The notes beneath the pieces are model-generated. The model made no database searches. It was not told where the DNA came from and worked only from the letters and a program-made list of their open reading frames with translations. A program made the translations under genes and the position numbers. Of a stretch of DNA of 64,000 nt, positions 40,291-63,681 are shown in pieces (position 1 is the first letter of the stretch; each line of letters begins with the position of its first letter). This DNA is from Asterochloris sp. CNOR1 (taxonomy: Eukaryota; Chlorophyta; Trebouxiophyceae; Trebouxiales; Trebouxiaceae), in contig OZ017758.1 in assembly GCA_963969365.1 (NCBI GenBank), positions 1-64,000 of the forward strand. The letters are read 5' to 3'.

Positions 40291-43200
40291 ATGGAGGATA
40301 ATGAGTTCAAGAGAGCCCTCTTCGCCACTCGCACCAGCCTGGACAGCGAGGATGAGCTGGACAAGGAACTGCAGGTCAGTCTTTAGGCCGCAAAGACGCC
40401 AGGCTTAAACAGGCATGTGATTTGTGCATCTGCAGGGCGCAGCACGCCATTTTCAGGCCTCTGTAATCTCCAGCAGAGTGTCATGTTGCAGAATTATGCT
40501 GTGCGGCCATGCTCACATGAGGGAGAGGGCTCTCAAGCGGCACTTTCATCGAGTGCTCACTTTCTTGACGCAAGCATGTGCACTCCTGCTGCCTGCACCA
40601 CTTGCCCCTTGCCTCCAGCGGTGTGCTTGAGCCTCATGTGGTGCACAGTTGAGTCACCCTAGCTCCGCATCGAGCCATCCTGGCCAGCTGCTTTGGCAGA
40701 AAGCTGATTCCAGCTGACCCTGCTGTGCTGCTCCCGGTGCTGTAGCGGGTGGTTGAGGAGATGGAGGGGCCTGCCAGCCACAGCCTGAACGGCGATTTTG
40801 CGCCCTCACCCAGCGAGGGGGAGGTATTTGCCGCTCCCGACAACCTGCACACCGCCATCCCCCACCTGCAGTCCACCCTGGCAGGTGAGGCGGGCGTCAT
40901 TCACTTGTCATGTGCTTGCTCAGGGAGCGTCCGCATGAGTCATAAACCATCTTGGGGCAGATGCGGTGCGTCATCCCCCAAGTCAGGGTGGCCGTGTCAG
41001 GGTGCAGCTGTGCCGGTGGCCTGCACCTTTGCTGGCATAGGTGATTCCTGCACAGGGCCTGCACTCATGCCTGTGACACCCGTACACCTACTTTAGCAGT
41101 CCCCACCCACTGATTGCATGCGTCCCTGCCCGGTGCAGCATTTGGGTTTCTCATGCTGCATCATGCCAGAGCTGCGCAGGGCCTGCATTCCTGTATGTGT
41201 CAGTCACAGACCCACTCTTGCCGCCTGTTGCAGCCAGCTGTACTCACTGACTGCACACGACCCTGCAACATGCAGCTTTTGGCTTCCCCTCGACTCTCAA
41301 CTTGCTGACGGGCGCGCCCGTGGACGCAGCTGCGGTCTGCAACCTGGTGCACGGCATGTTGCAGCAGCGTCAGCGCGCACTGGAGCAGCGTGCGCAGCTG
41401 GACGACCACGTGCAGCGCATGCGCAGCGAGGTGGCGCAGTGCGAGCAGACGCGAGACCGCCTGCAGGCACAGCTGCACGGGCGCGAGCGAGAGCTGGGGG
41501 CGCTGCAGAACAAGGTACGGGGGGCGGGGGAGGTGGGGCCAGGGTCTGGCCATCAAAGGTGGCTGTGAGGAAGCATGGTCTGCTCCGATCACGCTCCTGC
41601 AGAGTCAGGTGGGAGGAGGCTCCATGATGCAGCAGGCACGTCCTGGAAGGGGCAGCTGGGGGCTCGGCAGAACAAGGTGGGACGGAATTGACCAGCAGAA
41701 TGGGCTGTGAGAAGACTTGCTCTTGTCTGTACCTGCTCCTGCAGATTCTGGTGGGAGAGTGCTGCATGCAGAAAGGTGGACAGGCTGCGCAATGAGAGTG
41801 GCAGCAGCAGGCATGTGCACATCAGCTGTGGCACATCAAGTCCTGGGATGGAAGAGCCTGCTTTGCGGCTCTGGGTGGAGACACGTTTGTGAGAGGGGGC
41901 TGCGTGGAGCAGCAGGGGTGGCTGACTGCAGCTCTGCCGCGGCACTGGCTCATGCAGGAGCTGGGGCTGCTGCAGAACAGAGATTTGCCGTGGGCTCGCA
42001 GCAGTGAGAGCTGCAGATGAAGGCATGTGCACACTGGCTCAACATTCTCTGAGCAGGCCTGCTCTGGGCCACTGGGCACTGCAGGGTTTCTATAGTGGGG
42101 CCACAGGACGCAACTGTGTCGCATGGTGCAGCGTTCAGGGCTGCCAGCAATGCAGGCAGCTGCATGGGCGGAAGTTGGGAGCGCTGCGGCTTACTGCTGC
42201 GGGCAGGGATGTTGCTTGAGACATGGAAGGAGAGCAGGAGTCCGGTGCTGGGCAGTGCTGCTGCTGCTGAACGCTTGAGAGCGCTGGAGCGCAGAGGTCT
42301 GGCTGAGGGTGTGTCTTCCATGTCCATGCACTGCTGACCCAACCCCCGCATGGAGCCTGGGGTGGTCTGTCGGCAGCCTCATCGTGTGCCTGTCTGCAGG
42401 ACGCAGACTTGGAGCACTCTGGGGTAACTTCTTTTGGCATCCTCACATGATGTGTCTGTCTGCAGAGCGCCCACCTGGAGCGACTGGGGTGGCTCGTCAT
42501 AATCACTATCTTGTGCCTATCTGCAGAGTGTCCACCTGGAGTACTATGGGGGAACTTGTCAGCATCCTCGTCGTGTGCCTGTCTGCAGAGCGCCAGTCTG
42601 GAGCGAAGGGTGGCAGGGGAGGTGGGCCAGCTCACCCGCGAGCGCGATGACCTGCAGCGGCAGTGTGCGGACCTGCAGCGGCGCCAGACGCAGTTCCAGC
42701 ACGAGATCAGGCGCAAGGTGGGGTTTTACATATAGGGTTTCCTGTACAGCCGCTGCCGGCACACAGGGTGCCCACCAGCTGTGCAGTAGAGTAGGCAAGG
42801 GCCTGAAGCTTGCAGGCACTGGCTGCAGCAGCGGCCCATCTCCTGGAAGGCAAGCAGAATGCATGCGCCTTACGTCTGAGCACTTCTGTAGCCAGTTGGG
42901 AAGGAAGTCAGGGGAAAATGAAGTTAGCACTTCTGGCCAACCCTTGCATCTTGCTCTGTGGCCCACTGAACTGGGTCCAGTGGGCTCTTGCATCTAGGAA
43001 GCAGCGTCGCAGGGCATGATGCCGCGTTGCAGAGCACCATATTTCCATCAGAATGGCTCAGCACGCCAAGCTCTCTGGTCTTGCCGTTCTCACCCCTTAC
43101 ATGCAGCCACCTTTAGATGAAGTATGCCGGCGGACAACCTGCTTAAGCTGCACAAAGTGGTGACCTGCACCTGCCGGGGCTGCGTCAGAGGCAAGCTGCA

Positions 43201-46200
43201 CGCATGGTCTGAAGGGCCATCGACCTGCTCCCTGTAGCTGTGCTGCTGCCTGCAAACAGATTGCACCCTGCTCGCGTCTCAAGTGACCCGAAAGCCTGTG
43301 CTGTCCAGGTCAAGGGCAGGGATGCAGATGGCTGCAAGGCTTTCTCAACCCCCCCCCCCCCCCCCCCCCCCCAAAAAGAACTGGAAATGCTCTCTGAATC
43401 AAAAGGACCAGCAGGCTGGCCATAGTGGACCTTCCTGTAGTGAGGGTGGCTGCACCAGCAGTGCATGCTGAGGTTGAGTAAATCTTCATGGCTTGTGTAC
43501 CTGCTTGGCCTCACTGTTGTTGCATGAGGGGCTACAGGGCAAAGCTTGGAGGCCAGCAGATGGTGCGTGACCTCGTTGCAGTACACCCTCCTGGCTGCAG
43601 ATCATGGAACATGCAAAGGCTCATGTCGAGTTTGCTGGCTTGTTACTGCTCTTAACTGACGTGCTGGGCCTGCAGGAGCTGGAGCACTGACGGATATGTC
43701 ACAGACGCTGCGGAGGGCCTCACAATTGTCTGCTACGCCTGCAGGAGCTGGAGCACGAGAAGCTGCAGGTGAAGCTCCGAAACCAGCTGATGGAGCGCAA
43801 GAGGGAGGCCAAGAAGGCCTTTGATCTGGCCGGGCAGATCCAGAAGCGGGTTCAGCAGCAGGCTGGGGCAGGGGGCGGAGAGGGGCGGCGCCCTTCCGCG
43901 AGGGCAGATGAGGAAACCTACAGGGTAAGTTGGTGGTGGCCTGCAGAGCAGAGGCAGTGCATGCAGCGTGTCTCTGCTGCATGCCCATGCAGCACCTCCT
44001 CTGCCTCACCAGGCCAGGCGCTCAATGAAGGTTGTGCCCTCAGCACTGTTTGTGTGCATTCAGCTGGCTGCTTGCTGCGCAACAAAGTTGGAAGGAAGTG
44101 TTGGAAGATGAGTTGCCTGCCAGAAGGGACATCTGCAGCTGTTTACATCTGCTAAGGTTCCACTAGCTGCTCACATGCATTGCACCACATGCAGCGCTGC
44201 ATTTATTGTAGGTGCCTATGAGACCCACCTTCACATGCGTTGCTCAGATACCACTCTGCACCTGCAGATGATTGTGGGTGCCTATGAGACCCGGCTTCAA
44301 GATGCTGCTGCCGAGGCTGCCGATTTGCGGCAGGCCCTGACCAGTCTGCAGCAGGAGCACCGCACGCTGGAGAACCGGCAGGCCGCCCAGATGCAGCGCA
44401 TCGCGGCCGCCAGCAACCTGGTGAGTCTGAGTAAGCAGATTACCATGACGCAGCACTGCGCCTATGAGACCTGCCTTCACGATGCGGTGCAACGCGGCTG
44501 CTTGGGAAGGTGGCAATAGCGGGGCAGCTGCCCAAAGGGAGCTCTGCACCGCAGCTGCCAGAAACCTCACCAGCTGTGCCTGACAGTCGCTGGGTTGCTG
44601 AAGGCTTCATGAGAGCGTGAAGTGTCTGTGCCCGACAGTGGCTGGAGTGCTTGAGGCTGCATGAGAGGGCCCTCTGGAGGGTGCACCACCTGTGGCTGAC
44701 CAGACCTACTGTGCTTGACTGTCATAGAAAGCCTCGCCTCCCTCACCAGCAGCAGCTGTGTGGAGCACCTGGTCATCGTGTCAAGTGCATCACTCTCATT
44801 GGTCCTGCCTCCAGAGCTTGTTTGTGTGTCGAGGGTGACTGATCGCACCTGCATGCCTGCCTAGCAGGAGTGAGCTGCATGAAGGCCTCTCAAGGGGCCA
44901 TGAGGCAGAGATTACAGCCCATCTCTGGAGGCTGTGTGACAAAGTGTTGGTCTCTTGTGGAAGCTGTGGCAAGCTTGCTGCCGGTCTGTAGGTGTAGCAG
45001 CAGATGTTTCCTGTAAGCAGTGCTGCATTCTGCAGACCAGATCCAGATGTGGGGGGCCTTGTCTCACCTGGAGGTGGAGGATGCCAAGGTGGACCCTGAC
45101 TGGTGCCGCACTTTATGACCCAGCAGCCTCTTGGGCTGCAGCAAGGCTGGGCTGCATTGGAACCCTTGCAGACATAGGCGCCATGCGCGCTCAGCTGAGG
45201 CCAGCACGCTGCCAGCTGGCACCTGGAGGGTGCCCTGCTCCACAGCGCTGCAGGAGCCAGCGAGGGGCACCCTGCCCAACCAGCTGATGACAGCACTCCA
45301 CCAGCTGGCATCTGGTGTGTACCCTCCTCCACAACTTTGCAGGAGGAGACGGGGCGGCGCACCTGCTCGCCCGCCTGATGGCTGCACTCCACCAGGTGCC
45401 AGTCTGAGGTGTGCCGCGCCTCTGCAGGTGGAGGACGACTTTGTGGACTCCCTGGAGGGCCGCCAGCCGGGCGAGCTGCAGGCCGAGCTGGACGGCAAGC
45501 TCGCGGCGCTCCGGCGGCGAGCGGGGGCCCTGGCCGCAGAGGACGGCCCCACGCGTCAGGTGAGGCAGGCAGCAGCGCTGTATCACCAGGCGTGTGCCCC
45601 TCCCCCCCACCCTCTCTCCGGGGATGGTTGCTGCAGACCAGGCGCTGTTGACGCAAAGGCACCACAGGTGCCGATTGAGCCTGTTTGATGGCGGCTGTTC
45701 TTTGCCTGCAAGTGCCCAGGGTCCAGCGGTGCTCTCCTTGGTAGCTGCAAGCAAAGCAGTCTGAGGACACTTGGCCCCACGAGCTTGGTTGCTGCAGACC
45801 AATTTACACTGTGGACAGTGCTGCGCTGAACCTTGGCTGGTGCCCCTTGCAGGAGCTGGCCAGTCCAGGGGAGCAGCGTCTGCATGACGAGCTCATGGCA
45901 GCCCGCAAAGTCATTCAGGACCAGGTCAGCTGCCAGGAAACACTGCAGCACATGGCAGATCAGTCACACATTCCGATGGGGTTACCGCATGGGTGGAGTT
46001 GGTGCTTTTGCCAGCAGCCCGCTTGTCATGCTCATGGTTGCCAGACTGAAGATTGCCAGCTCACTGCATCCTTTCACAGAGACTGAGAATTGGCAGGATG
46101 CCTGCCAGCCAGTCACGACCTGGTAGGCAGACGTTGCCTCTGGATCCAAGCAACTCTGGAGCACTCATTCATCAAAGGGAATCGCATTGCTGCACCTTTC

Positions 46201-48408
46201 GCCTGGTGCTTGTGACCCATCGCAGCCCTGTGTGCCGCACATGTTGTGTCGCCGCATGACGTGGCGCTTGCACTCCCGTTCCGACCCTGTCCAGACCCTG
46301 TGCAGGAAATGCTCGTGTCAGCAACAATGGCAGCCCTTCGCAAAGCGCAGAGCCCCCAGTCGTCCCCGGTCAGAGTGCAGCAGCAACAAGCGTCCCAGTT
46401 GCACGCACTGAAGCAGCAGTATCAGGGCAGGCTCGATCAGCAGCAGCAGCAGCTGGAAGCTGTCTCTGCCCAGCTGCAACAGGTGAGACAGCTGGAGTAG
46501 ATGTGGGGTGTCGCATTGTCCCTGCCTAAAGGCCTCACTCTGATGGGCATGCTTCTATGCACATCAGCCAGCTGGCAGGTGGGCACAAAGGTTTTATTTC
46601 TCCAAAAAGTCTTGCAATAAGGCTTCACAGCACTGTTTGTGGATAATGCAGAGTTCAGGCAGGTTCAGATGTGTGGATTGCTCAGGCCGGCATTCTGAGC
46701 TATCAACCATTGCTGGGTTGCCTTCCTGTCGAGGCATCTCTTTCAGGTGCCTGGCTTGATACATTTCTGCAGCAAGGGTCCCGTCAAAGCTGCAGCCATG
46801 ATGAGCTCGTGTCTGCAGGAACGGCAGACAGCAGTTCAGCAGGTGCACAAAGCTGCACAGGAGAGGCAGGAGGCCCTGCAGGACCAGGAGGCCAGTCTAT
46901 ACAGCGAGGTAAACAATAGAATAACCAGGACACTGTAGCAGGAATATTCAAACTTCTGCAGCCTCCTGTCCGGCGGCTTGTGAGGCATCATGTCGTAGTT
47001 GGCTGTTGGTCGTGACAGCCTGGAGCATTGCCTCTCTGCTGGGGGTGATCCTCTCTCTGCATGCTTGGGCGGCTGGTGGGGTCTGTTTAAGTGCACTGTG
47101 TTAGCTTACTGGGCCTGCTGAGGCCTGTATTTGGACCCAGGTGTTGAGCTTCTGCATTGGGATTGTTGGGATTCAGAGTTGGGATGCTGGTGTGGCAGGG
47201 CAGACTGCGCACCTGCAGAGCTTTGTGTGGCTTGGAGGTTCTGCTCACAGAGGTCCACTTTGGCTGCCTGCAGATGGAGCAGACCAAGGCAGACCTTCTG
47301 GCAGAGCAGCAGCGCCTGCTGACATCCCTGCGTTCCGAGCAGCAGCACCTCCAACAGAAGGTAGGGCGGCCGCATGATTGACACCAGGAAGTATATTCAT
47401 GACTCGCATACATAGGCCACCCTTTGTGGGGGTTTCTAGCCACTGTGGAATGCCCATCATCAGGGGTGTCATTGGCATCATGCTCATTGGCTTTTGGCAG
47501 GGGATTGATCTAATTCCAGCCTTGGTACTACTTGTAGCCAGTGGCCGCTGTTTAGCAATATGACATTATGCAAAGTGTCACTACACGGCTGCTGTTGTTT
47601 TGCGTGCGTGCTGCAGGTTTTTGAAATGGGCTACACTGACGTCGACTGGTGGCAGAAAGCACCTCTGCATGTCTGCCCCGCTGCATGGCTGCCTTGTCGC
47701 ATGCTGCTGAGTGCGGCAAGCTTGGTGCCTGCCGACATGACAGCCCTGCCCCCTCAGGCAGGCCAACAACATAGCAGCAGCCCCATCCGAGCTGCAAAGG
47801 GCGACTGCTGCAGCTGCTGTCCACCGCAGGCTGTGGAGCTGGAGTCTGCCCGCTCGCACTTTGAGGACAATCAGAGGGCATACTACGGCATCATCCGCAG
47901 ATTTGCGCCAGGGTTTGGCGCCGGCAGGTTCCTGGCAGCAGCAGTAGAGCGCATGGCTCAGAAGGTGGGCCATCAGGTCAAGCCTGCCAGCCATGACTTA
48001 TGCAGCAGGGGGGGGGTGGGCAGCACTCAGCCTTCAGGCCTGCCCCCTCTGGGAGACACAAGTCTAGTTCTGGTTTGCACGAAGAAGGAGCTCCATGAAG
48101 AAGGAGCTCCACAAGAAGCTAACTGATCCTTGTTTGTCTTTGCACTCATGCAAGCCCAAGTTGCGCTGCGTTTCAGTCCGCTCAGTCAGTGCATACGCAT
48201 GCAGAATGCCCAGGAGAACATGTTGGAGACAGACGGTTCCCTTTCCCAGATCAGCTCCCCAGCCAAGTCAAGTACGTCTAGCGGCAGAGGTAGCCTTGCA
48301 GACGACCGCCCTGTTCAGTCACATATCAAGTCCCCGCCTCCTGCGCACTATTCTGGGGTTCAGTCCCCGGCTCGAGCCTTCCAGCCTCACAATGGCCGAA
48401 ATGCATGA
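40291..48408 (+). CDS. ADIP/SSX2IP (Msd1)-like coiled-coil protein
   Basis: Thirteen exons keep phase and give 606 aa: 40291-40374, 40746-40884, 41276-41514, 42589-42717, 43745-43924, 44268-44420, 45428-45559, 45853-45924, 46306-46482, 46819-46908, 47274-47360, 47830-47964, 48205-48408. The marks of the afadin/alpha-actinin-binding family are in order: FGFPSTLNLL with VCNLVHGMLQQRQR, then RERELGALQNK, LTRERDDLQRQ, QTQFQHEIRRKELEHEKLQ, and MIVGAYETRLQDA. Animal and fungal members anchor microtubules at centrosomes or spindle poles; a basal-body role here is inference. Almost the whole protein is coiled coil, ending in a Ser/Pro/Gln tail. Introns 3-7 are large and packed with copies of the flanking exon edges, so decoy splice sites are abundant. 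Confidence 0.85.
41515..42588. repeat. Intron 3 of the ADIP-like gene: echoes of both exon edges
   Basis: The left part repeats the end of exon 3 (CTGGGGGCGCTGCAGAACAA, then GGT) at about 41650-41676 and 41950-41980, and a CTCCTGCAGA-TC-GGTGGGAG block at about 41596 and 41738. The right part has three tandem decoys of the exon 4 acceptor: CTGTCTGCAG, then GACGCAGACTTGGAG or AGCGCCCACCTGGAG. Their AG ends are at 42399, 42464 and 42526, before the genuine one at 42588 (spacing 65, 62, 62). Confidence 0.85.
43349..43372 (+). repeat. C24 homopolymer
   Basis: Twenty-four consecutive C residues followed by AAAAAG, in intron 4 of the ADIP-like gene. The length is probably unstable and may be a sequencing estimate. 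Confidence 0.9.
43660..43760. repeat. Echo of the exon 5 acceptor edge
   Basis: GGGCCTGCAGGAGCTGGAGC at 43667-43686 duplicates the genuine acceptor edge (CGCCTGCAGGAGCTGGAGC) at 43738 onward, 69-70 bp apart. The decoy runs into a TGA. Confidence 0.8.
44195..44490. repeat. Echoes of exon 6 on both sides
   Basis: The exon 6 start (ATTGTGGGTGCCTATGAGAC, then CCGGCTTCA) is echoed upstream at about 44205-44237 (ATTGTAGGTGCCTATGAGAC, CCACCTTCA) and downstream at about 44458-44482 (GCGCCTATGAGACCTGCCTT). The true exon (44268-44420) lies between. Confidence 0.85.
45060..45427. repeat. Echoes before exon 7
   Basis: CACCTGGAGGTGGAGGATGC at about 45067 resembles the exon 7 start (CAGGTGGAGGACGACTTTGT, 45425). 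Between them a block of the form CCAGCTGGCA-CTGG, CC-CTCCTCCACA, TTGCAGGAG occurs at about 45208, 45300 and (partly) 45394. Confidence 0.6.
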
Positions 48409-48592: not shown

Positions 48593-51500
48593 ATGCACAG
48601 CATTCAGCTGTGGCCACGTGACGGATCGGAAGACATCAAATCCTTATTTGAACACTATGAGGGGCTTCAGGTTTCCTTCTTCACGCTCCTGTCGGGGCAA
48701 GACACCGAAACAGGCAGAATTCTTCAGGCGGCATGGCTGACTCCAGCCAGATCGTGGGGCTGCACAGGCAGCCAAGCAACGGACAGCACCAAAGCTTAGC
48801 GGCAAGCTTCACATGCCCACAGTCCTTAGTGCAGCCTTTGTGTGGTACTGACTATGCCCACTATGCCTGTCCTGCAGGATATCTATGAGAAGCAGAGCAA
48901 TTTGTATCGCAACACACTATCCTCAAAGCAGCGCTTTGCAACCCTTCAAGAGAATGAGGAGACCTTCATCCCACCACAGGACCTCAAGGTCATCCGGACT
49001 CTGGGGGAAGGCAGCTTTGCTTCAGGTCAGCGTCAGGCTATGGGCGCTTTCAAAGGGCACCTTTTCCCATGTGGCATACATACAGCCGGCGCCCCATTGC
49101 TCGACAGGAGTGCTGCAGCTGCAGCCTGGCATACCTGCAAGCCTCGTCTGCAGCAGACAGGCAGGTGTCTGTGTGTTGTGCTGCCGCTGGGCTCCCGTAC
49201 TGCGCTGGGTGCCATCACAGGGCTGCACCTGCCTCAGGCCGCTTGTCTGGCCTGGCTGGTGCTCATTTCTTCCTGTGTGACCACTGCCTGCCATCAACAG
49301 GAGGGGACATATGCTGTGGGCGAGTGCAGTGCCTGCTTTCATGCTGATTCCCTGAACGCTGGTCGCCTTCTGCCATCATTTGCACCAAGCAGTGTACATG
49401 CTCCAGCAGGACAGCTGCACCTCTAGAGCCTGCAGAGGCTAGCACCTGGCACCCCGCAAGGACATGGGATGGCTGGGCTGCACAGGGCAGCCTGCTCTTG
49501 CCAAGGTGTACAGAGCTTGCCTGCAGTTCTGCGGGTGCAGCACCAACAGCTGCCGGCCTCGCCAGAGGCTGATGTATGTCAAAGCTCCTCACCAGACTGC
49601 TCACTTGTAGTGACTGCAAGGCAGCAGCATGGCGGTCTGTGAGTATGCGTAGACTGTCAAGCTGTCAACAAGCTCACAAGCAGCCCCTCCTCCTGTGACC
49701 TGCAGTACAGGTGTGCGAGTGGAAGACAGGGAACCCACCAGGGCTGGTGGCAGTCAAGCGCTTGAAGCCCAGCCAGGGGCCCAACAGCCAACAGGAGGTC
49801 ACCAGCTTTGTCAAAGAGTGCGGCATCCTGAGGAAGCTGAGCCACAGGTGGGCTTACATCTTCAGCAGGCAGAGGTCACTAGTGTTGTCAAGGAGTGTGG
49901 CATTCTGACGAAGCTGAACCACATGTGGGCAGGAGTGTTGCAGCAGATAGGGGGCGTGAGATTTGGCAGCAGATGGAAGTCAGACTCGCGTCGGCAAAGA
50001 GTGCGGCATATTGAGAAGGCTGGACCATAGAGGGGCAGGGGCATTGCAGTGGATGGAGGTCGCGAGCTTTGGCAGCGGATAGAGGTCATGGGTGTTGTCA
50101 AGGAGTGTGGCATTCTGGGGAGGATGCTCTGCCGGCACTTAGTCATGAGGTTGCACGCCTCACCCCCCCTGCATGTGTGCTGTGTCTGCAGGCACATTGT
50201 GAAGTACCTGGGGTTTGGCCACGATGAGCCCGTGCCCACCGACAGCGAGACCCAGGTCCCAGCCCCCAGCTGCACCTACCTTGTGCAGGAGTACCTGGAG
50301 TCCGGGACTCTCAAGTCCCTGGTGTTAAAACAGGTGCGTGGGTCCCATCAGCTCTCCAACCGTGGGAGCAGCTTGCGGCTCCTTGCCCCTTGACTGGCGC
50401 GGCAAGGAACCCCCTTCGGGGGCTGAGCCAGCGGCTTTTGTCGCATACTGATCTTGCCTCAGGTTCACCAGCAGCACCCAAGTCCACGCCAGAAAGGGTG
50501 CCAATGACTTGAGGCCAATTGGCTGATTGACAGCAGGTCAGCAAATGGATCAACATTGCGGACAATTGCTTGTACTTGGAGTCAAGGCTGCTCAACTCCC
50601 TGATGCTCAAAGGAGTCTGGGGTGCTAAGTACTGGTTCTGGTGCTGAGATGGGTGCATGGGTTGATTGGCTGCTTGGCTCAATCTCTAGTGCTCAATCAT
50701 GGGCATGCGCTGGTTGACGGCAGGCCCTGCACGGCATCAAAGCTGCTGTGGAGAGTGCTTGGGTGCCTGTCGGGCCCTCAAGGCTCTGCAAATGTCTGCC
50801 AGCATGGCAGCCATCATATGTATGCAGTCTGCGCCCACATGTTGAAGTGCAGTGCTGAATGAGGTGCTGCTGCATGCTGCAGATGGTCAACCCCTTTGCC
50901 CACTCCTATACCTCAGGGCAGGTGCGTCGCAGCAGTCTGTGCAGGCACTTCAGCCAGCCTTGGTCTTGTGCTAGCTGCTAATCACCTGGCTGCAACAGTT
51001 TCAGTCAAGAGCAGCCTCAGGTGACCGGCTGCCATGCTGGTGCATGGTGTCAGGCTGCACCTGATGGGTTTATTTGCTGTTGCAGGCCTTTGAGTGGATG
51101 ATGCAGATAGCAGACGCTCTCACGTATTTGCACCATCTCGATCCCACAGTGAGGGCATCACACTGGCAGCTGCGCTGAAGATCTATCTTGGGAGCGTTGT
51201 GCCCTCCCTCACCTCACAAGCGCATCTGACCCTGCCACTGCTCTGTAGGTCATTCACCGGGACCTGAAGCTGGAGAACATCCTACTGAGTGAGTGCGCTT
51301 CAGATCAGCTCGCACCTGCATGTGCTGGGGCAGCCCAGTTGCCAGTCCTTGCACGGCAGAGCAAGCCAGTATCTGGGATGGGCTCAGAAGCTGTCTTGGC
51401 CCACATGTTGCTGGGATCATGCAGCCTATCATGCATGACGTTCACCCACACGCACAGCAGTGACGCACCCTAAAGCTGCTTTGGCTGCCACATAGCGGTA

Positions 51501-54500
51501 GGTTCCACACGCTCAGCATCAACTGGATCACCTGGCATGCCCTTTGCACTAACCCCGAAAACCCCTGACTCCAACCTGCAGGGCCAGCTGGGGGCAAATC
51601 GTCCAAAGGTCGGGATGCTGTGCTGACAGATTTCGGCCTACATACCACAACAGCCGTCACAATGCAGCATGCCGGCTCCCACGCAGCATTGTGAGTGTGG
51701 CAGCGCTGCCCGGAACGCCACATGCCATCATGCCACTGCTGTCACAGTGTGGTACGGCGACTCCTGCACAGCGCTGTCAGTGCAGCCCCTCCTGCTGTCC
51801 TGCATGCCACATGTGTTCCTGCCAGCGTCCAGTCTGCTGTTCGTGGCAGAGATTGAGAGGGAAAGCACACAAGCCCCTTCCCCTGTTTGCTGCACATCTG
51901 CTGTGGCACATTGCAGAGCTGGTTCCCAGTGCACAGCACTGAAACAATTGCTAGATTCTGAAGGTTGATATGCTGCGTGCAGGCAAGACATTGCCGCAGG
52001 ACGTCCAATAAAAGGTCAGCACACCACTTTCAGTGAGACACCTGCAACCAAGTTGGCTGCTTCCTGTTCTGCCCCAAAGCCCAAGATGGCGGCCTGTGCT
52101 TGAGCTGGCGACTTGTGCCAGACCGTTGGCATGCCTTTAGGGCTACTGCGTCCAGGTCGTGCATTGATAGCATGCTGCTGCTCACTGCACTCGTGTGAGC
52201 AGGATGGGCCCTTGCCTGTAGCGTGCGCCTGCCCAGACAGACTCCATTCAGCCAGCCAGCTGTGGCTGCTGGTAAAAGACTCTGTTGTACCCTGCCAGAG
52301 AGGCCGCTTCCCCTCCAGATGTCTGTCTGCCAAGTGCCCTACCCGCAGAGCGGCCCCTCACGAGTCACCTAGCTGTGGTTGAGCGCCCACAGCTGGCTGG
52401 TTGGGCCATTCAAATCGTCCCCTAGGGCTTGCCATGCCCTCTGCTGTGGGCAACCCCACTCCCAAGACAGCCTTGAGCCAGCAGCCTTGTGTATATGCAG
52501 CACAGAACATGCCTAAGAGCAACAGCCTGCTGCATGCCCTGCCTGCAGACAAAGCATTTGTGCCGCAGCCTGGAGCTGCCTTCAGAACAGGACATCGCAA
52601 ATGATGGCCAGCAGTCTGCTTTTTACTCATGCCTGCCCACTCACAGCCGTCTCCAAAATGTGCAGTAGACCTGCTCTTTTTTCTGTCTGCAGTCAAGGAC
52701 ATCCTGGACAACATCTAGCGCCTGCATGGGTGCCCCCATGACAAAACGCTTGCGTGAATACAGCAGATGTGCTGCCTTCAGACTAGGACATCCTGGACAG
52801 GAGTCTCACCATATGAACCTTGTGAACACAGCAGATGTGCCACCTGCAGACAAGGACATCCTGGACAAGAGCCAGCGCCTGGACCGCGCTCTGTCCAGAT
52901 CGCCTGGCAGCAGCATGCACGGCGCCCTCAACTTCATGGACCACCTGAACCGCAGCCGCCGCGCGGGACAGGCCAGTTCGAGGCAGCAGCAGGACCAGAG
53001 CACCAGCTTTGACCTGACAGGGCGTACAGGCAGCTACATGTACATGGCACCCGAGGTGCTCATGGGGCAGCCCTACAACGAAAAGGTGGGCTCCCCCTCA
53101 GGGATCATGCTGAAGCGGGGGCAGCTAAATGTACATTGCACCTTGCCCAAGGGGCAGCCTTGTAATGGAAAGGGATCATGCCGAAGCAGGACCTGTCTGA
53201 ACTGCAATTTCCTCATGTATCCTGCGGCTGCTTTCTCCTTCTGACCTGTCAGGAGCCTCCTCCTCGTGGCAGCTGCACTGCAAGTGGTTCAAGTCTGGAG
53301 AGGGCCATGACCTGTTTGAGGACCCATGTCCTCTGATCTGCATCAACAAGCCGTGGGCGGTGATGACGGTCCTGCAAGCGCTTTTGCTTTGCAGCCATTG
53401 AGGAGCAACAAAACCCATGCTTGTTGTTGCAACCCTTCAGGCAATGCCAGGGCTTGACCTGCTGGGCCCAGACTGGACTGCCAGCAACAGTCCTGTGCGT
53501 AATCTGCTTGCAGGGTCACATGTCAGCAGCACACGCATGCCGTGCTTTCATCTGGGCACCAGGCTGCAGATCTTGCCCATGACTTGTAGCAGCTGCACCA
53601 GCGGCAGAACCTGAGCATAGCATGCTGACGGGGCCAGAAGTGCATATATGTTTGGGTGACATCGCTTCAGCTCCCTCTTGGCCTGCTGCTGCTGATGCCG
53701 CCGCACACGAAGGGCCAGTGGTGCTGCCATTGGCCTGCACGTGGATGTTTCGCCCCACAGGGTGGTGCTGTACGAGCTGATGATGCGGCGCTTCAGCTCT
53801 TCGCCTGTGGCCTGCTGCTGCTGCTGCTGCATGCACAGGGCCCATACCTCAGGGCCCCTACTTCTGCCCTACTGGCCTGCAGGTGGACGTGTTCTCCTTT
53901 GGGGTGGTGCTGTATGAGCTGATGATGCGGGAGGTCACCTCTGCAGTGGTGATTCAGTCTGGGGACCCGCAGATGCCGGAGCTGTACGCCTTCAAGGTGA
54001 TGCAGCACTGCCTGTGATGCCTGCTACGGCCTGTCTGCAACCCATGCAAGCAGCCAGGCTGCTGCCATGAGCCAAGAGGTGGCTGCAGTGCTTGGTGATG
54101 CCTGCAACTCAGAGTGATGGCAATGAACACCCCTGCAGGAGCTGCCGTCCCGTGCCCATCTTGCCATGGAAACAAGCCAGGTGCCTGCAGGAGCTGCTGC
54201 TCCGATCTCAATAGTGAGGGGCCACTTGTGCTGCACATGCGGCTGGGCGTGTACAGGAGGTTTCAAACCCTCAATCCTCAACTGGGAGGGCTGCTGAGCC
54301 AGGAGTGCAGGGAGGTCCTAATGCATCTGAGCGGCCGGCGGGTACAGGAGGCCCTGAACTTGGACCCCTGCCGAGTACAGGAGGCCGCGGAGCCATGAGT
54401 GCAGGAGGTGCCGGTCTGCCTGCATCTGATCAGTCCCCTCCATGCTGCAGGTGGCTGGCGGGTACAGGCGGCCGCTGAGCAAGGACTGGCCAGAGGCGCT

Positions 54501-55278: not shown

Positions 55279-58200
55279 TCAGGCCACTGCCAGCGGTTGC
55301 TCTTTGCCTGCCCTCTGGGCCACCCACTGGCGTGCCCATGCATCGTAGTGCACAATCTCGTCCAGACTGGGCGCCATGACGAGTTCCCGTCTGTGAGCAT
55401 CACAACACTGCTCCACAAGCTTTACAATGTCCATGTAGCCAACCTTCTCGTCCAGGAACATCTCCACTGCCTGCAGACGCAGAAAGAAGAGTGTGTATGC
55501 ATTCAAGGAAGGCGACCTTTGAGCAGACACAGTGTCCTGGTCTGCAAACAGAAGGAGCAGCTGCCCGGCCATTGGCCATGCAATCCCCCACGCTCACATT
55601 GGCTGCGCACAAATTCTTGCTTGAGGCCTCTCGACCCACACAGCTCACAGAAGCAAGATGTCCCGAGCCGCAATTTCTGCGGCTACCAACAACCCATTCA
55701 AAGCAAGCTGAGGTGTCAAGGTGATCCCAGCAGGCACACCTGCTCGTTGGCAGCGCTGAGGACGCCCGTCATGGTTCCCCCTGCCCTCCCCGCTGCATAT
55801 GCCAGGTTCATGGCGGGGTACTTGGCATCGTCAGGGGCCTTGAAGGTAAGGTCGCCCATCTTGACAAAGTCCAGGCGGGGGCAAAACTGCTCGCTGCAGG
55901 GTAGGCGCTGTGGCCAAGCCATTGTCACCAGGATGGGGATGCGCATAGACGGCCACCCCAGCTGCAGGAACAGGGCAGGGCAAGAGTTGAGCAGGGAAGG
56001 AGTTACAGAGTGCGGAGGCAGCTGTCTGTGCTTGGCTGCACTGCACCCAGGGCTTGGCTTCAGGGTCGCAGGGACGGCCATCCCAGGTGCAGGTACAGGG
56101 AGGGCAAGAATAGAACAGGTCAGGAGGCATCGCACAAACAGGGCAGGGCAAGTGCTGAGTAGAGCAGCATATTCAGAAACAGGGCAGGGCAACAAGTATG
56201 ACACAGAATGTGTAACAGAGCAGAATAGCAGGTGCAGTGTGCATAGGCAGCTATCTGCGTCTGGCTGCAACCATCATTATGGAGTGTTGCAACGACCTAC
56301 AACCGTAACCCTGCACACAGAGGCCATCGTGCCGCACAGGCAGATATATATAGCTTGACACACAGGGGATGGCATGCACCACAGCAGCAGCACTAGCAGC
56401 AGCAGGCTCCAGGCATCTTCAAGCGCTAGGCAACAGTGCATGTACTTGCGTTTGCTACACACAGTTTCTTTTTTTTGGTTGGCACCTGTTTCCTTTTGTG
56501 GGAGCGCACTTGTGCTTCCCAAAGGCACAATCAACCATGAGACTTGCTCACAGCTTGTTTTCCCTCACTGGACATGGACGCAAATGCCTGCTACACTATC
56601 TCTGTGGTGAGCAGAGGCCCATGCCCAGCCCTTACAAGTGCAAAAGCTGACCCTGTTGCCTGATGGCGCAATTGCATGCATCGTCCCTAGTTGAAGCCCT
56701 GAATTTTCCAGCAACAGAAATGTGATGAGTCAAAGCATGAGCCTCACCTGGGCCAGCACAGATGAGTCTGCGGTTTCCACCATGGAGTGGATGATGGACT
56801 GGGGGTGGATCACAATGTCAATGTTGTTGTAGTCCACCCCAAACAGGTAGTGGGCCTCAATGACCTGATTTGCAGGACAGGACAAACTGGTCAGCCTGGC
56901 TTGACGTCACATGAAAAGAGTGCGGCGTCTTTCTTAACCCAAGCTGTGGCAGGGCAGCATTCGTGGTGTGTAGGCATGTTTTGGACGGCAGCCAGCCTTA
57001 GGAGATTGAGACAGGGCGGCACAATGAACAAAGCCTGGCGTGACGGCAGACAAGGGAGTGGGGCACCAAGTCCTTGTGGCAGGCAGCAGTGGTGCGTGTG
57101 CTTCCTGCATTATGCAGCCAACATCAAGGGCGTTCACGCTGAGCCTGATGCAAGTGTGTGTGGCGGCTACATAGCAAAGGATTGCAGCAGCAGGGGTGCC
57201 TGTGCATGTTGCGGTCGGCTGCTTGCACACACACAAGAAGTTCAAACTGAGCCTGGTGCAGGTGACCTGCCACAACTCATGAGGCACAGCTTTCCAGCAC
57301 AGTGCACACTGCGTGCCACTGCTGCGGTGCAGTTGCGTGCCACACCTGCGGTGCAGGCGCTGAGCCCTTGTTTCTGCTGAGACCTGGTGCAGGTGCCAAG
57401 CAGCGGTGAGGCCATACCTGAGACAGCCCCTCAGCCAGCTGGCCAGAGCTGCTGGACACACTGCTGCCTTCTGTGTCACAACAAAATTCCCACACTGGAC
57501 GCCACAAATGATGCTGGCAATACACAAGCATACAAAGACAACAAGCAAATGTTGTTTGCAGAATACAATGATGGAAAGAATCTTATAGTAGCGCAGGTGT
57601 CACCTCCAGGCCCTTGTTCATCAGCGTGGCCGAGTCCACAGTGATCTTGCGCCCCATGCTCCAGTTGGGGTGCTTCAGCGCATCAGCCACCTGCAGCAGG
57701 GAGGGCCAGAGCGGGCCACACTACATCATAGGCGGCGCAGGACTGTGTGCCGGCAACCCGCGGCAGTAGGCTCCCCGGGACATGCCGTGCTCAGCAAGAG
57801 GAAGGACCAGTGAGGAAGCAGCAACAGGGTCGAAGTAGCCGCAGCCCAATTGGCGGTCTGCAAGCCTCATGTGCCTAGTGCCGAGTCAGTCAATGCGACT
57901 GTCTGCCCCGATCTGTGGCAGTTGTGAAGCAGTGGCGCAGCTGCGTGACCAGAGAAGGAGCTGCTGTAGCTGCCACATATGCGACAGCAAATCTAGGCCT
58001 GAATTTCTGACAGACAGCCTAGAGTAGCAGCCCAGGCACAGCGACCCACCTTGGTAAGCTGCGGCTTCTTGATTGGCCAGTCCCTGAGGCAGCCAGATGC
58101 TGTGGTGCAGAGTTCCAAGTGCTCACTTAACCACCCAAAGCAGCACAAGCTCTGCAACCCACCTTGACATGCTGCAGCTTCTCGACTGGCCAGTCCCTGA

Positions 58201-60487
58201 AGGCGCCGCCTGACGCGGTCAGGATAATGCGCCGCAGCCCATTTTCTGGCAGTCCCTGGATGCACTGGAAGATGGCCGAGTGCTCCGAATCTGCAAAACC
58301 CAAGAAAGGCAGGGCAGTTGCTGCTCTGAGGGAACAGGTTACACTGGCTCAGGGTCATGTTAAGGCTGCAGCATTGCCCACACCACTGTTGTTGTAGTCC
58401 CTCAATGCACTGGGAAATGGCCGAGTGCTCCAAATCTGATAACAAAAAAGGTGGCGCAGTGGCTGCTCTGAGGGGATGGGGTTAGGGTGCTCTACGCGAA
58501 CGGCTAGGACTGGCTCAGGTTCAAGGTTGCAACATGCGCCATTCTCGTTCTACGCGACAGTGCTTGCAAGGCGCAGTGGCTGCTCTAAGGTGACCGGTAG
58601 CACTGGCTCAGGGTGATGGCTCAAGGCTGCAGAATGTGCCTGTGGGCCATGCTGCATGCACCAACAATGTGGACCGTGTTGCATGCACAACAGTGTGTGC
58701 AAGCAGTTCTTGCAGGGCGGCGGCTCTGTCCCATATCCTCCCAGCCCTCTCCACAGGGCACCGTCTGGGCTGTGCTCACCTGCTGGCAGGATGTGCACGT
58801 CGTGGCGCTGTGCCAGGGGCAGCACGTAAGGGCCTCCAGCAATGAGGGTCTCCTTGTTGGCCAGGCAGATGTCCTTTCCAGCCTCGATGGCGGCACAGGT
58901 GGGCTGCAGTCCAGCACAGCCAACGATGCCTACAGGGGAACACAGGAAGAAATTGAAGAAGAAGAAAATAGGCACCTGGAGAGTCAGGCTGTCTTACAGG
59001 GCAATCCTGCTCACTTCTATTGACTGCAATCCTCTCTGGATGTGTTGGTGTACACTCTGTCAAGGAATGGTGGATGCCTGACTTCCTTGTAGGCGGAGCA
59101 CCACTGCTTATGACGTGCATATTGCCGCGAGGCTACCGTTTCAGATCCCGCCCAGCACATCGTGCCATATGCCACCATCGGCTCACCTGTGATGACTGCA
59201 TCCACCTCGGGGTGCCGTGCCACCTCGACTGCCCCCTCGTCCCCCACCAGGATCTCCGGCTGCTGGGGCACGTCCTTGATCAGCTCCTTCAGGTCCTTGA
59301 CCCGGCCGGCATCCTTGATGGCCACAAGCTTGGGCTGAAACTGCCTGATCTGCTCTGCCAGCAGGTCAATGTTGGACCCTGCAGAGATGGAACAGGCTGG
59401 CTACTGACATGCTGTGAAGTCAGCAGGTCGACGTCAGACCCTGCAACAATAGAGGGGGGCTACTGGAAGGTCGATGTTGGACCCTGCAGAGTTGAGTCAG
59501 CAGGTCAGTCTTGGACCTTGCAAAGATAGAGGGGTGGCTGCTGAAATGGTTGATGGTGGCCACTGCAGAGGTAAAGGGGGTGGCTACTGAGGAGTTGTGA
59601 AGGCAGCAGGCAAATGGTGGAGTTTGCAGAGATAAAGGGAGTGGCTAATTTAATGTTGATGGCAGACCCTGCAGAGATAGACTGATGAGGTGTGCAGTGA
59701 ACAAGCCAGCCTGCAGAGAAGGACCAGATTGCCACTGAATGTGTCTCGAGTCAGCAGGCCAAGGCTGAAGCCTGCAGAGGTGAACACTGAAGGCGTGCAA
59801 GATGGCAGGCCAATGCTGGAGGTGTGGCGAGATGCTGGTCACTGACTGGATCATGTCGCTGCTGTGGAGTGCCCCTGCCTGAAACTGAAACTCGGTCATG
59901 TTATGCTGGATTTGCTGGCGTGCATGCTTGATGTCAGTCTCATGACAGTGAGGCTTGCGTTTCCATGCATGTACAGCACTGATAGCATTGGCTCAGCTGT
60001 GGCTGTGTATATGGACGCTGAAGGTGACATGTCTGCAGGCCCTTGACCCTGCGTTTGCGCAGCAAGCACCGTGCAGCGCCAGGCACCCAGCAAGCCTTAC
60101 CTGCTGCAAGAGCGACCAGCTCAAACTGCTCTGGGTGCTCCTGAATAATCTCCAGACTCTGGGTGCCAATACTGCCAGTGGAGCCAAGCAATGAGAATTT
60201 CTGCAGAGCAGAAAGTTGTGGCCTGCTACATCATGCATTTAGGGTGAGAAGGTTCACCGCAGCAAGCTTCTATGAAGCAGCAGGGTCACCTTGGGCAGTT
60301 TGAGTTTGCTAGTGTCTTCTTTGATGATGGCGCGCCCAGGCCATGCAGGTGGAGGCCCCTGGGCAGCAGCTCTGACTGCTGATCTCCTCCTGTGACGTCT
60401 CAGAAGGCGATAAGAGCATCCACAGGAGTTCTGTGCTGAGTTCAGCGCCTGCATGCTTCCCTTGCATTGCTGTGCTGTCTGCTGCAT
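55279..60487 (-). CDS. DXR: 1-deoxy-D-xylulose 5-phosphate reductoisomerase, plastid
   Basis: Nine exons (60487-60290, 60200-60101, 59378-59187, 58929-58780, 58290-58163, 57690-57604, 56864-56748, 55961-55740, 55470-55279) give 461 aa in phase. DXR makes 2-C-methyl-D-erythritol 4-phosphate with NADPH, the committed step of the plastid MEP isoprenoid pathway. The Arg-rich N-terminus followed by [10 protein letters not shown] is the plant transit-peptide junction. Further marks: [16 protein letters not shown] (NADPH loop), [24 protein letters not shown] (metal and substrate), [10 protein letters not shown] (flexible loop), [34 protein letters not shown] and [20 protein letters not shown]. It is convergent with the kinase and divergent from the SET gene. 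Introns 2, 4 and 5 contain exon-edge echoes. Confidence 0.97.
58030..58720. repeat. DXR exon 5: echoes of both edges in both introns
   Basis: On the + strand, the lower edge CCACCTTGACATGCTGCAGC, then TTCTCGACTGGCCAGTCCCTG (58159 on), is echoed at about 58048-58110. The upper edge, GCACTGGAAGATGGCCGAGT followed by GCTCCGAATCTG (58262 on) and ~100 bp of intron, is echoed at about 58405-58520, and the intronic part once more at about 58565-58640 (CAGTGGCTGCTCT, CACTGGCTCAGGGT). The unit is about 135 bp. Confidence 0.9.
59379..59840. repeat. DXR intron 2: at least eight ~55-bp echoes of the exon 3 edge
   Basis: The genuine edge on the + strand, CAGGTCAATGTTGGACCCTG then CAGAGATGG (59362-59390), recurs in degraded form near 59423, 59467, 59500, 59550, 59608, 59655, 59706, 59752 and 59806. 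The copies keep a GGTC-ATG-TGGACCCTGCAGAG core and often GGGGTGGCTACTGA between units. In gene sense each copy offers a CTCTGCAG acceptor followed by GGTCCAAC-like exon start. Confidence 0.9.
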
Positions 60488-60727
60488 TGCTGCAGCCAGT
60501 CAGCAGCAGAACACACAAGAAAGCTGCTTGCTGCTCTCGAGAGCAAATTTGACCATCAGATCGGTCAAATCAGATTGCCCCGAAAGCTGCCTGCACACTT
60601 TGGGTCTGCTGACACCAACTGAGCAACAGGGTGATAGTGGATTTCTCCGCAAGGGGGGATTTGGCCATTGCGCCTACACTAGCAACGCAGGCATTTAGCC
60701 TCCGGTGCTCAGTCGGCAACAGAGGGC

Positions 60728-63681
60728 ATGACAGACATGCACCAAAGTGTGCAGCCCTTTGCACACCAACTACATGGCCTTCAGCGTCACCGGGTTGGTG
60801 GGAGCCAATACAGGGCTCCTCACAGGACATGCTGTACAGCCAGCACCGGCGTCAAGCGCAAGAGGGAGCATCAGCAAATCCAGCTGGCTCCCGCCGAAGC
60901 CGAGGAGTTCCTGACATGGGCCACAGAGGCTGGCGCCAAAGCTGACAAGCTGGAGCTTGCCATGTTTGATGGTGAGGCACTGAGAGCAGCTACACCATGT
61001 GGAGGCCCTTGCATCACACACCACGCCTCATGTTCTGCCAAGTTACATGCTGCCCAGCTGCCCTCTGCAGCCTCAGCTGTGCTCGATGTCCACTGCTGGC
61101 AGCCACGGAGGGTGAGGGCAGCAGCATGGCTGTGTGCCAGGGGCATGCAGCCACTCAAGCTGCTGTGAGCACTGAGCCACAACCAGAGTCTAAAGCCACA
61201 GCATAAAAGCAGCAGTGTTGACCTGCAGCCGAGCGCTGGGCAGCTGCTATGCAGGCCTGCGTGGCATGCGGGCACGCCAGAGCATCGCCAGTGGCGAGAC
61301 ACTGGTGTCCATCCCCCGACAGGCCGCCGTCCTGGTGACGCCCGGCATGGCGTGCCCAGCTCAGTTGGCCGGACAGCCGGTGGATGTCGCCTTCTGGAAG
61401 AGCAGCCCCTGGTGAGCCAGCAGGCTGTGGGGCTGCTGCAGACTGGTGCTGGTCCAGGCAAAGGCAGGGCTATCCAATCTACATTGTTTGAGTACCAGGT
61501 GGGATTGCAGCCATCATTCAGCTGGTGTGACATAGGCAGGAGCGACGATGTCAAGATCCACAGATTGCAGGTGCTGCGAGGCCTGGCATGGCAGGCCAGA
61601 GCGGGCAGCATGCATATCCAGCTTGCAAAGGGCCACAGGCCTCCTGTGGCTCACTTGCTGCCATTGTGCTGTGACGGTCACCTGGAGCACACTTGCTTGC
61701 CCACACCACTGGGTGATGATGGCCTCCTACAGCCACTTGCTGCCACTGCATGCCTGACATTGCCCTACAGCATCCTTGCTTACAGCAAAGAACAGGAATT
61801 GCACTTCATGAAGACTCAACTGATGACTGCTGATGTTTGCTTCTGCTTTGGATCCAACAAATCACGCTTTGGTCATGGCTTCTGATGGCGCTACTGGTGC
61901 TGCCAAAGGCTGCGTTGCTCTTCTGCAGCAATCTCGCATGCTCTGACCGCCCAAGACCGACCCCCATGTGGAAATGTTCAACATCAAAACTGCTCTCTGC
62001 TGCGTCCTGCAGGCATGTCAAGATGGCCCTGCTGCTGCTGGAGGAAAGGCGGCAAGGCCGTGACTCCCCGGTGTGGGGCTACGTGGAGCACCTGCCGCGG
62101 CACTTTGACACCCTGCTGCACTGGAGCGAGGCTGAGCTGCATGAGCTCTGCTACCCGGCCCTGCAGCAGTCGGTGAGTGCTCACACTGCCGTGCTCACCC
62201 ACCAGGTCCCTCTGTCGTGAGCTGCTGCACTCAAGGCTGTGGGAGAGTCTGGTCAGACTGGCAACAGTATATCTGGCAGGCAGACCTGTCAATTGCACCA
62301 GCAAGCAGTCTGTTGCGCTCTTTGAGGTATCCATGCAGCAGAGTGCCTGTGTGGGCCATGCTTTGAGGCGTGCTTGGGCCTGGAATGAGGTTCCTCACAC
62401 TGCATCTGCACGGTAACTTTCAGCTTGTTCACAGCTTGGCGGCCTCGATGCAGGTCACCGACCAGCGCAAGGCCTGGAACGGGTACTATCACGATTGGCA
62501 GGACGCCCACCCAGGCACACCAGTTGCGGAGTCAGACTTTGTGTGGGCGCTGGAGTGTGTGAGGAGTCGCGCATTCTCAGGCCCCTGGTCAGGTGCGCCC
62601 CTGCCCTCTGCAGCCTGTTGCAATTCAGCGCTGGGTTTGGTGTTTTGAGATTTATGAGCTGCCACTGTTGTTGGTGGTCGTCTGTCTCAAAATTGAGCTC
62701 TGGCACCAGCACGGCAGAGCACTGCAGGCTGCCACAATCCGGGCTACCTCCACGCACTTGGACCACTTGCAAATCCACTTGCAATGCACATTGCTCGATG
62801 ATTACTTTCATAACCGGCAGGCAGCTTCCAGAGAAGTTGGCTTGCGGTTTGGGCTGGCGGTCACAGAACAGCATCTGGCCCTGACCGGACTTTCACCTCC
62901 AATGTAGGATGCTCACTGGGTTCCTTGATGTTATGCAGGCAGCCCCCTGAGAGATCTGCTTCAGCTCTCCGCTCCAGCAGCAGTGGCTGCCCTGGTTGTA
63001 CCTGGACCTTTGCCTTCAATGCACAAGAAGTAGTGAACTCATCTATGTCCTGCAGGAAGCCCTCTAAGAGATCGGCTGCGGCTAGCTGCTCCTGCAGCAG
63101 TGGCAGGCCTGGTCTATACTCAGGTTGCCCACATCCCCATAGAGCAGATTCTGAATGGCGCCATCGCTGCCGTGCTCTTCAACATCATCTACGACTTGGT
63201 CCTCAGCAGCAAGCTGCGCTGGTATGCGCTGGCCTCAGTCATTGACTCCATCAACCACAGCTCCTTCAGCCAGGTCAGCCTGCCTGACAACCTGCAGGAA
63301 TGAAAGTCTGAGCTGGTCAGAAGCGTGCTGAGTCTGGCAGTCACATGTATGTTGGGCTCAGCCACATCATCGTGCAGGTGCGGCCCTGGATGTATTGAAC
63401 TTTGCGGCTGCTGCTGACGGGCCATCAAGGAATACAGGCATTCAGTCTCCATGTTCTGTATTCAATGGATGTCGTCCCGCTGGCGCCACAGCCTGAGGCA
63501 AACCCTGCTTGGCCAGCAAAGATCTGCCTCCCTTGTGGCAATGGCCTGCAAACAGTTGCTAATGTGCGGAGCGCAAGCGCTGGCCTTAATGACACCTGAC
63601 GGTGACATGCTGCAGAGCGAGGTGGCCTACGAGTACTTCCGCGACCGCTTCAGCGTGACATCCCAGCAGCCCTACTCACAG
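60728..63681 (+). CDS. SET-domain protein methyltransferase, Rubisco-LSMT type (partial)
   Basis: Exons 60728-60971, 61255-61411, 62013-62172, 62454-62592, 63056-63273 and 63616-63681 are in phase (328 codons) and the gene continues past the window. Order: LAPAEAEEFLTWATEAGAK, the SET start GLRGMRARQSIASGETLVSI, PW-HVKMALLLLEERRQG, WGYVEHLPRHFDTLLHWSE, SDFVWALECVRSRAFSGPWS, then VIDSINHSSFSQ (the SET NH motif) and SEVAYEYFRDRFSV. This is the plant Rubisco large-subunit/aldolase lysine methyltransferase and SETD3 pattern; the substrate cannot be told. The last exon ends CAG|GCAAGA, so the next intron would be GC-AG. An N-terminal transit peptide is possible (MTDMHQSVQPFAHQLHGLQR) but unclear. 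It is divergent from DXR, 240 bp apart. Confidence 0.85.
62930..63060. repeat. In-frame echo of SET exon 5
   Basis: 62941-62995 copies the start of exon 5 (63056 on) about 118 bp upstream: GGCAGCCCCCTGAGAGATCT, then CCAGCAGCAGTGGC. It is translatable in the same phase (GSPLRDLLQLSAPAAVAALV against GSPLRDRLRLAAPAAVAGLV), with its own CAG acceptor at 62939. Confidence 0.8.

Follow-up and report, generated by a model that had tools for sequence, protein, structure and literature searches.

Degraded tandem copies of exon edges are frequent in introns of an Asterochloris genome

Tandem duplications of an intron-exon boundary have been described in lancelet genes under the name mirages (PMC3087553, PMC3902484). 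In the portions of these reports on which we draw, mirages are direct tandem repeats with units of 10-160 bp that include an exon edge and its splice site, at 5' or 3' boundaries. Many units keep AG or GT, splicing is reported to be regular, the copies are similar to one another (81-100% in BflGb6), copy number varies between haplotypes, and a handful of genes are concerned. The PGBD5 paper likens imperfect repeats to mirages (PMC3902484), and we therefore do not regard high unit similarity as essential to the class. Two other systems come close. In Chlamydomonas and Volvox, tandem repeats with motifs of 1-50 nt are dense in introns and more numerous close to intron-exon junctions; the relevant part of that report does not state that the unit includes an exon edge (PMC3887541). 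In the model of intron birth by tandem duplication, as set out in the part of the report used here for ATP2A1 and potato RdRp, splice signals are duplicated and a new intron arises with the protein unchanged (PMC4974935). In a limited search of the open-licence PMC literature, no account of junction echoes across an algal genome came up.

An earlier note on the first 64 kb of one contig of Asterochloris sp. CNOR1 (the window, 64,000 nucleotides) had described introns that hold degraded tandem copies of their own exon borders, called them exon-edge echoes and knew of no named class for them. We find that echoes are a real, widespread feature of an already named kind, the lancelet mirages (PMC3087553, PMC3902484), and that what is new is their frequency in this genome. 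They share with mirages direct tandem units of tens to ~160 bp (here about 120 bp) with the boundary inside the unit in 74 of 83 cases. As in mirages, many copies keep the splice dinucleotide, GT in half of them and AG in 70%. Regular splicing is consistent with the continuity of one protein, DXR, and with the gene models. The likeness to the published mirages, as far as the parts cited describe them, ends at several points. Echoes lack highly similar units, having a median identity of 0.76-0.79 with few young arrays. They occur in a plastid-bearing genome, where roughly one in four of the introns tested (150 bp or longer) has them, and are accompanied by duplications of intron interiors, unlike mirages as described. 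Compared with the ATP2A1 and potato RdRp model, again as the cited part presents it (PMC4974935), echoes lengthen existing introns and the birth signature is absent.

Our sample comprised 294 kb, made up of the window and 23 ten-kb stretches on 18 contigs; the one assembly analysed totals 56.4 Mb in 21 contigs. Its DXR gene is a sign of a plastid-bearing organism, and its composition suits a green alga. Gene models came from a purpose-written gene finder trained on the same 294 kb, and all exon edges are those of its models. Initial settings gave 1643 exons, far too many of them tiny, and were replaced. The final output was 48 genes and 519 introns, with consensus sites CAG/GTGAG at donors and CTGCAG/G at acceptors (the slash marks the junction). 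Requiring both flanking exons to be at least 40 bp left 384 introns, of which 324 were at least 150 bp and 303 at least 200 bp long. To score echoes, we aligned each edge (40 exon and 20 intron nucleotides) to its own intron, with a null of 199 edges taken from other genes with the same splice consensus. Pfam searches of spliced products recovered ADIP, kinase and DXR domains, a 2-hydroxyacid dehydrogenase (the FDH of the earlier note) and a ubiquitin-conjugating enzyme. Pfam support is thus limited to the window genes ADIP, kinase, FDH, UBC12 and DXR, and solved-structure support to DXR, whose 395-aa product can be aligned over residues 3-377 with a solved DXR (E=2.6e-102). For the spliced product of the SET-like gene, Pfam gave no match at 1e-3, and the name is that of the earlier note. 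Ten single long ORFs searched against Pfam returned nothing, as did a megablast search against phages, and the window had no tRNA or Rfam match.

Echoes were present at or near the places named for the ADIP-like, kinase, DXR and SET-like genes. Mapped in the window, the features are as follows.

41276-41532, plus strand: ADIP-like exon with the echoed 3' edge (gene model; Pfam ADIP, PF11559)
41630-41678, plus strand: ADIP donor echo 1, 37/47 identical, keeping ..AACAAG/GT (alignment)
41926-41979, plus strand: ADIP donor echo 2, 40/52, site lost (alignment)
42151-42187, plus strand: ADIP donor echo 3, 34/37 aligned bases identical, gapped
42373-42541, plus strand: three echoes of ADIP acceptor 42588/42589, at 42373-42415, 42437-42493 and 42509-42541, tandem unit about 62 bp
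42589-42717, plus strand: ADIP-like exon used in the model, the last of four acceptor copies (gene model)
43649-43687, plus strand: echo of ADIP acceptor 43744/43745, 32/38, with a weaker one at 43501-43567
44184-44238, plus strand: echo of ADIP acceptor 44267/44268, 46/53
44460-44501, plus strand: wrong-side exception, the start of exon 44268-44420 copied in the next intron, 35/40
49706-49847, plus strand: kinase exon with the echoed donor edge (gene model; Pfam Pkinase, PF00069)
49885-50126, plus strand: echoes of kinase donor 49847, at 49885-49953 (53/68), 49975-50036 (45/60) and 50073-50126 (40/54)
52687-52803, plus strand: echoes of kinase acceptor 52849/52850, at 52687-52724 (34/38) and 52754-52803 (44/50)
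53724-53800, plus strand: echo of kinase acceptor 53882/53883, 62/76, AG lost
54229-54414, plus strand: two echoes of kinase acceptor 54450/54451, at 54229-54260 and 54321-54414
55279-60200, minus strand: DXR gene, 1-deoxy-D-xylulose 5-phosphate reductoisomerase (gene model, Pfam, solved DXR)
56067-56109, minus strand: echo of DXR acceptor 55961/55962, 38/43
58027-58103, minus strand: echo of DXR donor 58163/58162, 62/77, keeping AAG/GTGGGT
58369-58460, minus strand: echo of DXR acceptor 58290/58291, 74/92
59405-59786, minus strand: six echoes of DXR acceptor 59378/59379, at 59405-59445, 59468-59494, 59498-59530, 59604-59633, 59665-59681 and 59735-59786
62953-63028, plus strand: echo of SET-like acceptor 63097/63098, 56/71
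6290-6354, minus strand: echo of acceptor 6216/6217 in a minus-strand gene, 49/64
9611-9695, minus strand: short echoes of acceptor 9565/9566, at 9611-9643 and 9662-9695 (p=0.026, missing the cut-off)
4360-4663, minus strand: degenerate tandem array, unit about 95 bp, modelled as intron, with no confident exon edge inside

Three further minus-strand genes had been listed with less assurance; the one at 6.2 kb stands, that at 9.5 kb is weaker, and at 4.6 kb we see an array without a confident exon edge. The ADIP donor is placed at 41515 in the earlier note, the model exon ends at 41532, and the edge examined lies near 41514. Edges 41514, 42589 and 52850 were left out of the count because model exons shorter than 40 bp lie beside them, and the ADIP introns at 41515-42588 were lost to the same filter. 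In the ADIP intron that carries the copies, the gene finder placed micro-exons, a warning for gene finders more generally. The intron with the kinase echoes at 54229-54414 has its upstream end set by a weak model exon (54139-54180). The wrong-side copy at 44460-44501 is perhaps a whole-exon duplication, and the shortest of the six DXR echoes may be a chance match. An ADIP-like intron also contains a 24-base C homopolymer (43349-43372).

Echoes proved common throughout the sample. At p≤0.01 they were found at 38 donors and 45 acceptors out of 324 of each, against about 3 each by chance, and at one edge or the other in 76 of the 324 introns of at least 150 bp (about 2% by chance). Seven introns had echoes at both edges, with 5.3 expected under independence. 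The window (15 of 64 introns) was no different from the other 23 loci (61 of 260), and three of the 24 sequences (L015, L020 and L024) lacked any echo. Frequency climbed with intron length, from 6/69 at 150-250 bp to 18/35 above 700 bp; echo introns were longer (median 491 versus 347.5 bp, p=3e-6), which agrees with the proposal that the process lengthens introns. To speak of introns 'built from' copies is an overstatement, since the local repeats detected by blastn (E≤0.001, no more than 1 kb apart) account for 14,320 of the 209,716 bases predicted to be intronic and 248 of the 324 introns have no significant echo. Demanding a more strongly coding look of both flanking exons did not lower the rate (51/162 at LLR≥10, 31/84 at 15, 11/36 at 20), and echoes are therefore not a product of false exons. 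Controls stayed low: reverse-complement edges matched in 0.4% and 0% of 271, exon centres in 0/71 and 0/84, and other introns of the same gene in 0.7-1.0% of 289. Introns on the wrong side of the exon matched in 3/209 and 2/209, versus 18/209 at each edge on the correct side. FDH and UBC12, said to show no clear echoes, indeed had them in none of 16 introns; acceptor 31461 reached p=0.007 under alternative nulls. Exon-edge echoes are thus confirmed as real, beyond the window as well as in it.

The anatomy of the copies is that of worn tandem duplications. The best copy lay a median of 127 bp from a donor and 117 bp from an acceptor (quartiles 104-210 and 88-151), with offsets mostly between about 65 and 300 bp. 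Echoes spanning the junction with at least 5 aligned nucleotides on each side made up 74 of 83. Aligned length had a median of 0.56-0.64 of the offset and exceeded it in some, as in worn head-to-tail copies. Local blastn pairs were direct in 116 cases and inverted in 19. At a score of at least 15, 41 edges had one copy, 20 had two, 17 had three, three had four, and one each had five and six; copy numbers of one to nine had been given, of which nine was not seen, and weak extra copies at an edge may be chance matches. Where one edge had several copies, 70 pairs favoured the nearer copy, 38 the farther one and 6 were tied (p=0.003), as the earlier note had observed. The site used in the gene models was the outer one (first donor, last acceptor), and junction copies inside the exon body were at background (1/153 at each end). 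Duplication across a splice junction followed by use of one copy, the process originally suggested, accords with the direct orientation, the crossing of the junction, the correct side and the outer site in the models. Different introns of one locus also shared direct over inverted matches (28 plus, 2 minus), and duplications longer than one intron may therefore also occur.

The profile of local copies around junctions indicates that edges are not the only places duplicated. For 40-mers, the local-copy rate was 1.0% at exon position -100, 2.7% at -60 and 7.3% at the donor edge; it was 4.6-8.6% in the intron interior, 10.9% at the acceptor edge, 2.0% at exon +60 and 0.5% at +100. The direct blastn pairs comprised 44 edge-intron, 12 edge-edge, 13 exon-intron, 35 intron-intron, 8 exon-exon, 3 edge-exon and 1 exon-intergenic. 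In the 303 introns of at least 200 bp, 33-34 copies were counted at acceptor edges, 20-26 at donors and 16-21 in the interior, for edge/interior ratios of 1.76 (acceptor) and 1.21 (donor). We simulated random duplications (median 115 bp) in which exons were conserved and those crossing a junction were tolerated with the outer site kept. Edge and interior then came out about equal, and forbidding crossing duplications dropped the edges to 0.5-1.3%. At a constant rate, none of 48 runs attained the acceptor ratio (means 1.01 and 0.87) and 2 of 48 attained the donor ratio (means 0.91 and 0.82), and we rejected a steady-state neutral model as the sole account.

This shortfall at both edges means that a fit needs the added assumption of old age. 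Stopping duplication 0.12-0.2 substitutions per site ago gave a mean acceptor/interior ratio of 1.58-1.95, which brackets the 1.76 observed; the ageing settings reached that value in 3, 6 and 4 of 10 runs. Ageing raises the ratio because intron-intron pairs are lost from view sooner than exon-intron ones. Most of the edge signal is recovered with random placement, provided that the duplications are mostly old. The same model over-predicts donor echoes (25-35, or 37-44 with shorter units, versus 23 seen) and matches 40-80 bp inside exons (11-22 versus 5-7), and shorter duplication sizes (80 or 100 bp) left the misfit at donors and at deep exon positions. Such misfits could mean that donor or exon-rich duplications are less tolerated, or could reflect incorrect distributions of duplication size and age.

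By blastn, none of 101 local pairs exceeded 90% identity, a figure that is partly an artefact because blastn joins neighbouring array copies, and we used TRF in its place. In the same 303 introns, 1 of 9 TRF arrays with units of at least 40 bp matched at 90% or more, whereas constant-rate simulation put 53% of arrays at that level (20.7 arrays per run). Stopping duplication at 0.06, 0.12 and 0.2 yielded 17.8, 9.0 and 4.5 arrays for each run, of which 7%, 4% and 4% matched at 90% or more; the last setting gives too few arrays (4.5 versus 9 real). Over the 294 kb, 4 of 24 TRF arrays with units of at least 40 bp reached 90%, and the duplication rate has likely fallen since the echoes arose. Two of the four adjoin in L005 (8642-9205; units 130 and 96 bp, match 94% and 91%) and are among the few young ones.

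Taken together, we consider it probable that echoes are old local tandem duplications at near-random positions in genes, kept where the outer splice site was unchanged. Anatomy shows local tandem duplication of about 120 bp to be the first step, and the copy profile supports near-random placement, with a possible excess at edges. Duplications within exons would be purged, and those crossing a junction would survive, lengthening the intron, because the outer splice site and hence the protein stay unchanged; side-specificity and the lack of junction copies in exon bodies support this step, in which splicing itself is read from the models. Decay of the copies as junk follows, and edges would be conspicuous since conservation of the exon copy keeps the exon-intron pair recognizable longer than an intron-intron pair, a step that the data also support. 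Most duplications would be old, with a lower rate since. The echoes are, on this evidence, well explained by ordinary duplication and conservation, the edge excess and the apparent slowdown apart. A bolder interpretation, which we offer tentatively and hold to be somewhat doubtful, is that a past episode of about 120-bp tandem duplication has largely died down, and that duplicating a junction was nearly cost-free because the spliceosome keeps to the outer copy. About a quarter of introns of at least 150 bp would then preserve, as fossils, a natural experiment on how splice sites are chosen, in which duplications at donors were tolerated somewhat less readily than those at acceptors. In the models, the DXR protein is continuous over residues 3-377 and the outer sites are the ones used.

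The strongest competitor is an edge-directed process, in which duplications start preferentially at junctions, for example at the CTGCAG/G motif or through transcription or splicing intermediates, beyond what random placement gives. Both edges do exceed the steady-state random model, and simulated echoes run deeper into exons than the real ones do. Yet old age with exon conservation yields the acceptor ratio without targeting, donor edges are barely above the intron interior, and CTGCAG is no special edge mark, occurring 382 times in intron bodies against a third-order expectation of 390. We regard edge direction as unlikely. The same count rejects CTGCAG as a mark of fossil acceptors. Of the recurrent process first proposed, tandem duplication holds and edge-specificity is not supported, the interior (4.6-8.6%) being duplicated at rates comparable with the donor edge; interior rates and simulations together weaken an edge-only mechanism.

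Much less credit is due to the idea that the copies are unrecognized alternative or mutually exclusive exons. Some keep both frame and site, such as DXR 58027-58103, in which GT is kept and no gap falls over the last 39 exon bases (by eye). But 58 of 83 copies are disrupted (frame shift in 56, stop in 6; median 44 aligned nucleotides), differences are spread almost evenly over codon positions, and the DXR protein is continuous without the copies. Median copy identity was 0.76 at donors and 0.79 at acceptors. By codon position 1/2/3 it was 0.768/0.754/0.715 at donors and 0.775/0.790/0.729 at acceptors, slightly lower at position 3. The exon side was at 0.746 and 0.765 and the intron side at 0.712 and 0.744 (donor and acceptor); in shorter alignments the intron side, at 0.813, did not fall below the exon side, at 0.781. 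GT was kept in 17 of 34 copies (18 of 34 with other alignments; neighbouring dinucleotides 0.55) and AG in 28 of 40 (neighbours 0.61). Splice-site retention, evenness over codon positions and frame shifts lead us to conclude that the copies have decayed in the manner of non-coding DNA, with no detectable preservation or removal of their splice sites.

An accumulation of decoy sites, in line with the suggestion that echoes create them, is not supported, GT and AG being near the neighbour rate with no significant sense-strand excess in intron bodies. There, splice-like sites showed no significant sense/antisense difference that would signal decoy build-up or avoidance; the extremes were donors at 72 sense versus 97 antisense (p=0.065) and acceptors at 83 versus 64 (p=0.14). 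Differences between exon and copy were a normal mixture of 294 transitions and 347 transversions, and RIP-like hypermutation was rejected for want of a strong C-to-T bias. C>T/G>A changes affected 52 of 243 sites in CpG and 109 of 1378 elsewhere, making CpG about 2.7 times as mutable. Across the 24 sequences, CpG observed/expected was 0.33 in introns and 0.51 in exons; this depletion, together with the higher frequency of C>T at CpG sites of the copies, hints at CpG methylation.

Introners, or introner-like elements, are repeated sequences in introns and in that respect resemble echoes. Cross-locus matches in the 294-kb sample were balanced (59 plus versus 55 minus), giving no dispersed sense-strand family, and an introner family was rejected. 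Still less probable than alternative exons is the Rogers model, in which tandem genomic duplication of exon segments gave rise to the introns and the echoes would be birth marks. The mechanism is published (PMC4974935), and lancelet mirages have been proposed as a route to new introns (PMC3087553), as the parts of those papers used here set out. In our sample, intron starts matched the downstream exon in 1 of 361 cases and intron ends the upstream exon in 0 of 361 (p≤0.01), donor edges matched the downstream exon in 5 of 361, and echoes adjoin their own edge. Nothing found in the 294 kb spoke for a function of the echoes, for an accumulation of decoys, for introners or for the birth of introns. 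Chance matching in low-complexity sequence, scarcely credible even with introns rich in TGC/GCA words (TGCAG 1593 times versus 204 by base composition) and CTG/CAG-rich composition or the splice consensus to draw on, is refuted for the set as a whole by a null of real other-gene edges sharing the consensus and by reverse-complement, wrong-side and same-gene controls near 1% or below, though single weak copies may have arisen in this way.

Read as old duplications filtered by conservation, the echoes provide a quantified account of intron lengthening, in which random local duplication is filtered by protein conservation. They also indicate that junction duplications can be common (76 of 324 introns) and are no oddity of lancelets. 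Since a functional splice site was copied in every event, the set could serve to study why the outer one prevails.

The window also holds features of other kinds. A telomere array, (CCCTAAA)n, occupies positions 1-541, which makes the window a chromosome end. A predicted coding exon on the minus strand (8158-8951) carries tandem repeats with units of 15-93 bp and 75-93% match, and encodes a Gln/Ala/Glu-rich protein stretch. A predicted intron contains a perfect 76-bp palindrome (20182-20257), a young hairpin or foldback that as single-stranded DNA folds at -50 kcal/mol (z -12.4), and a second palindrome of 95% lies at 24638-24698.
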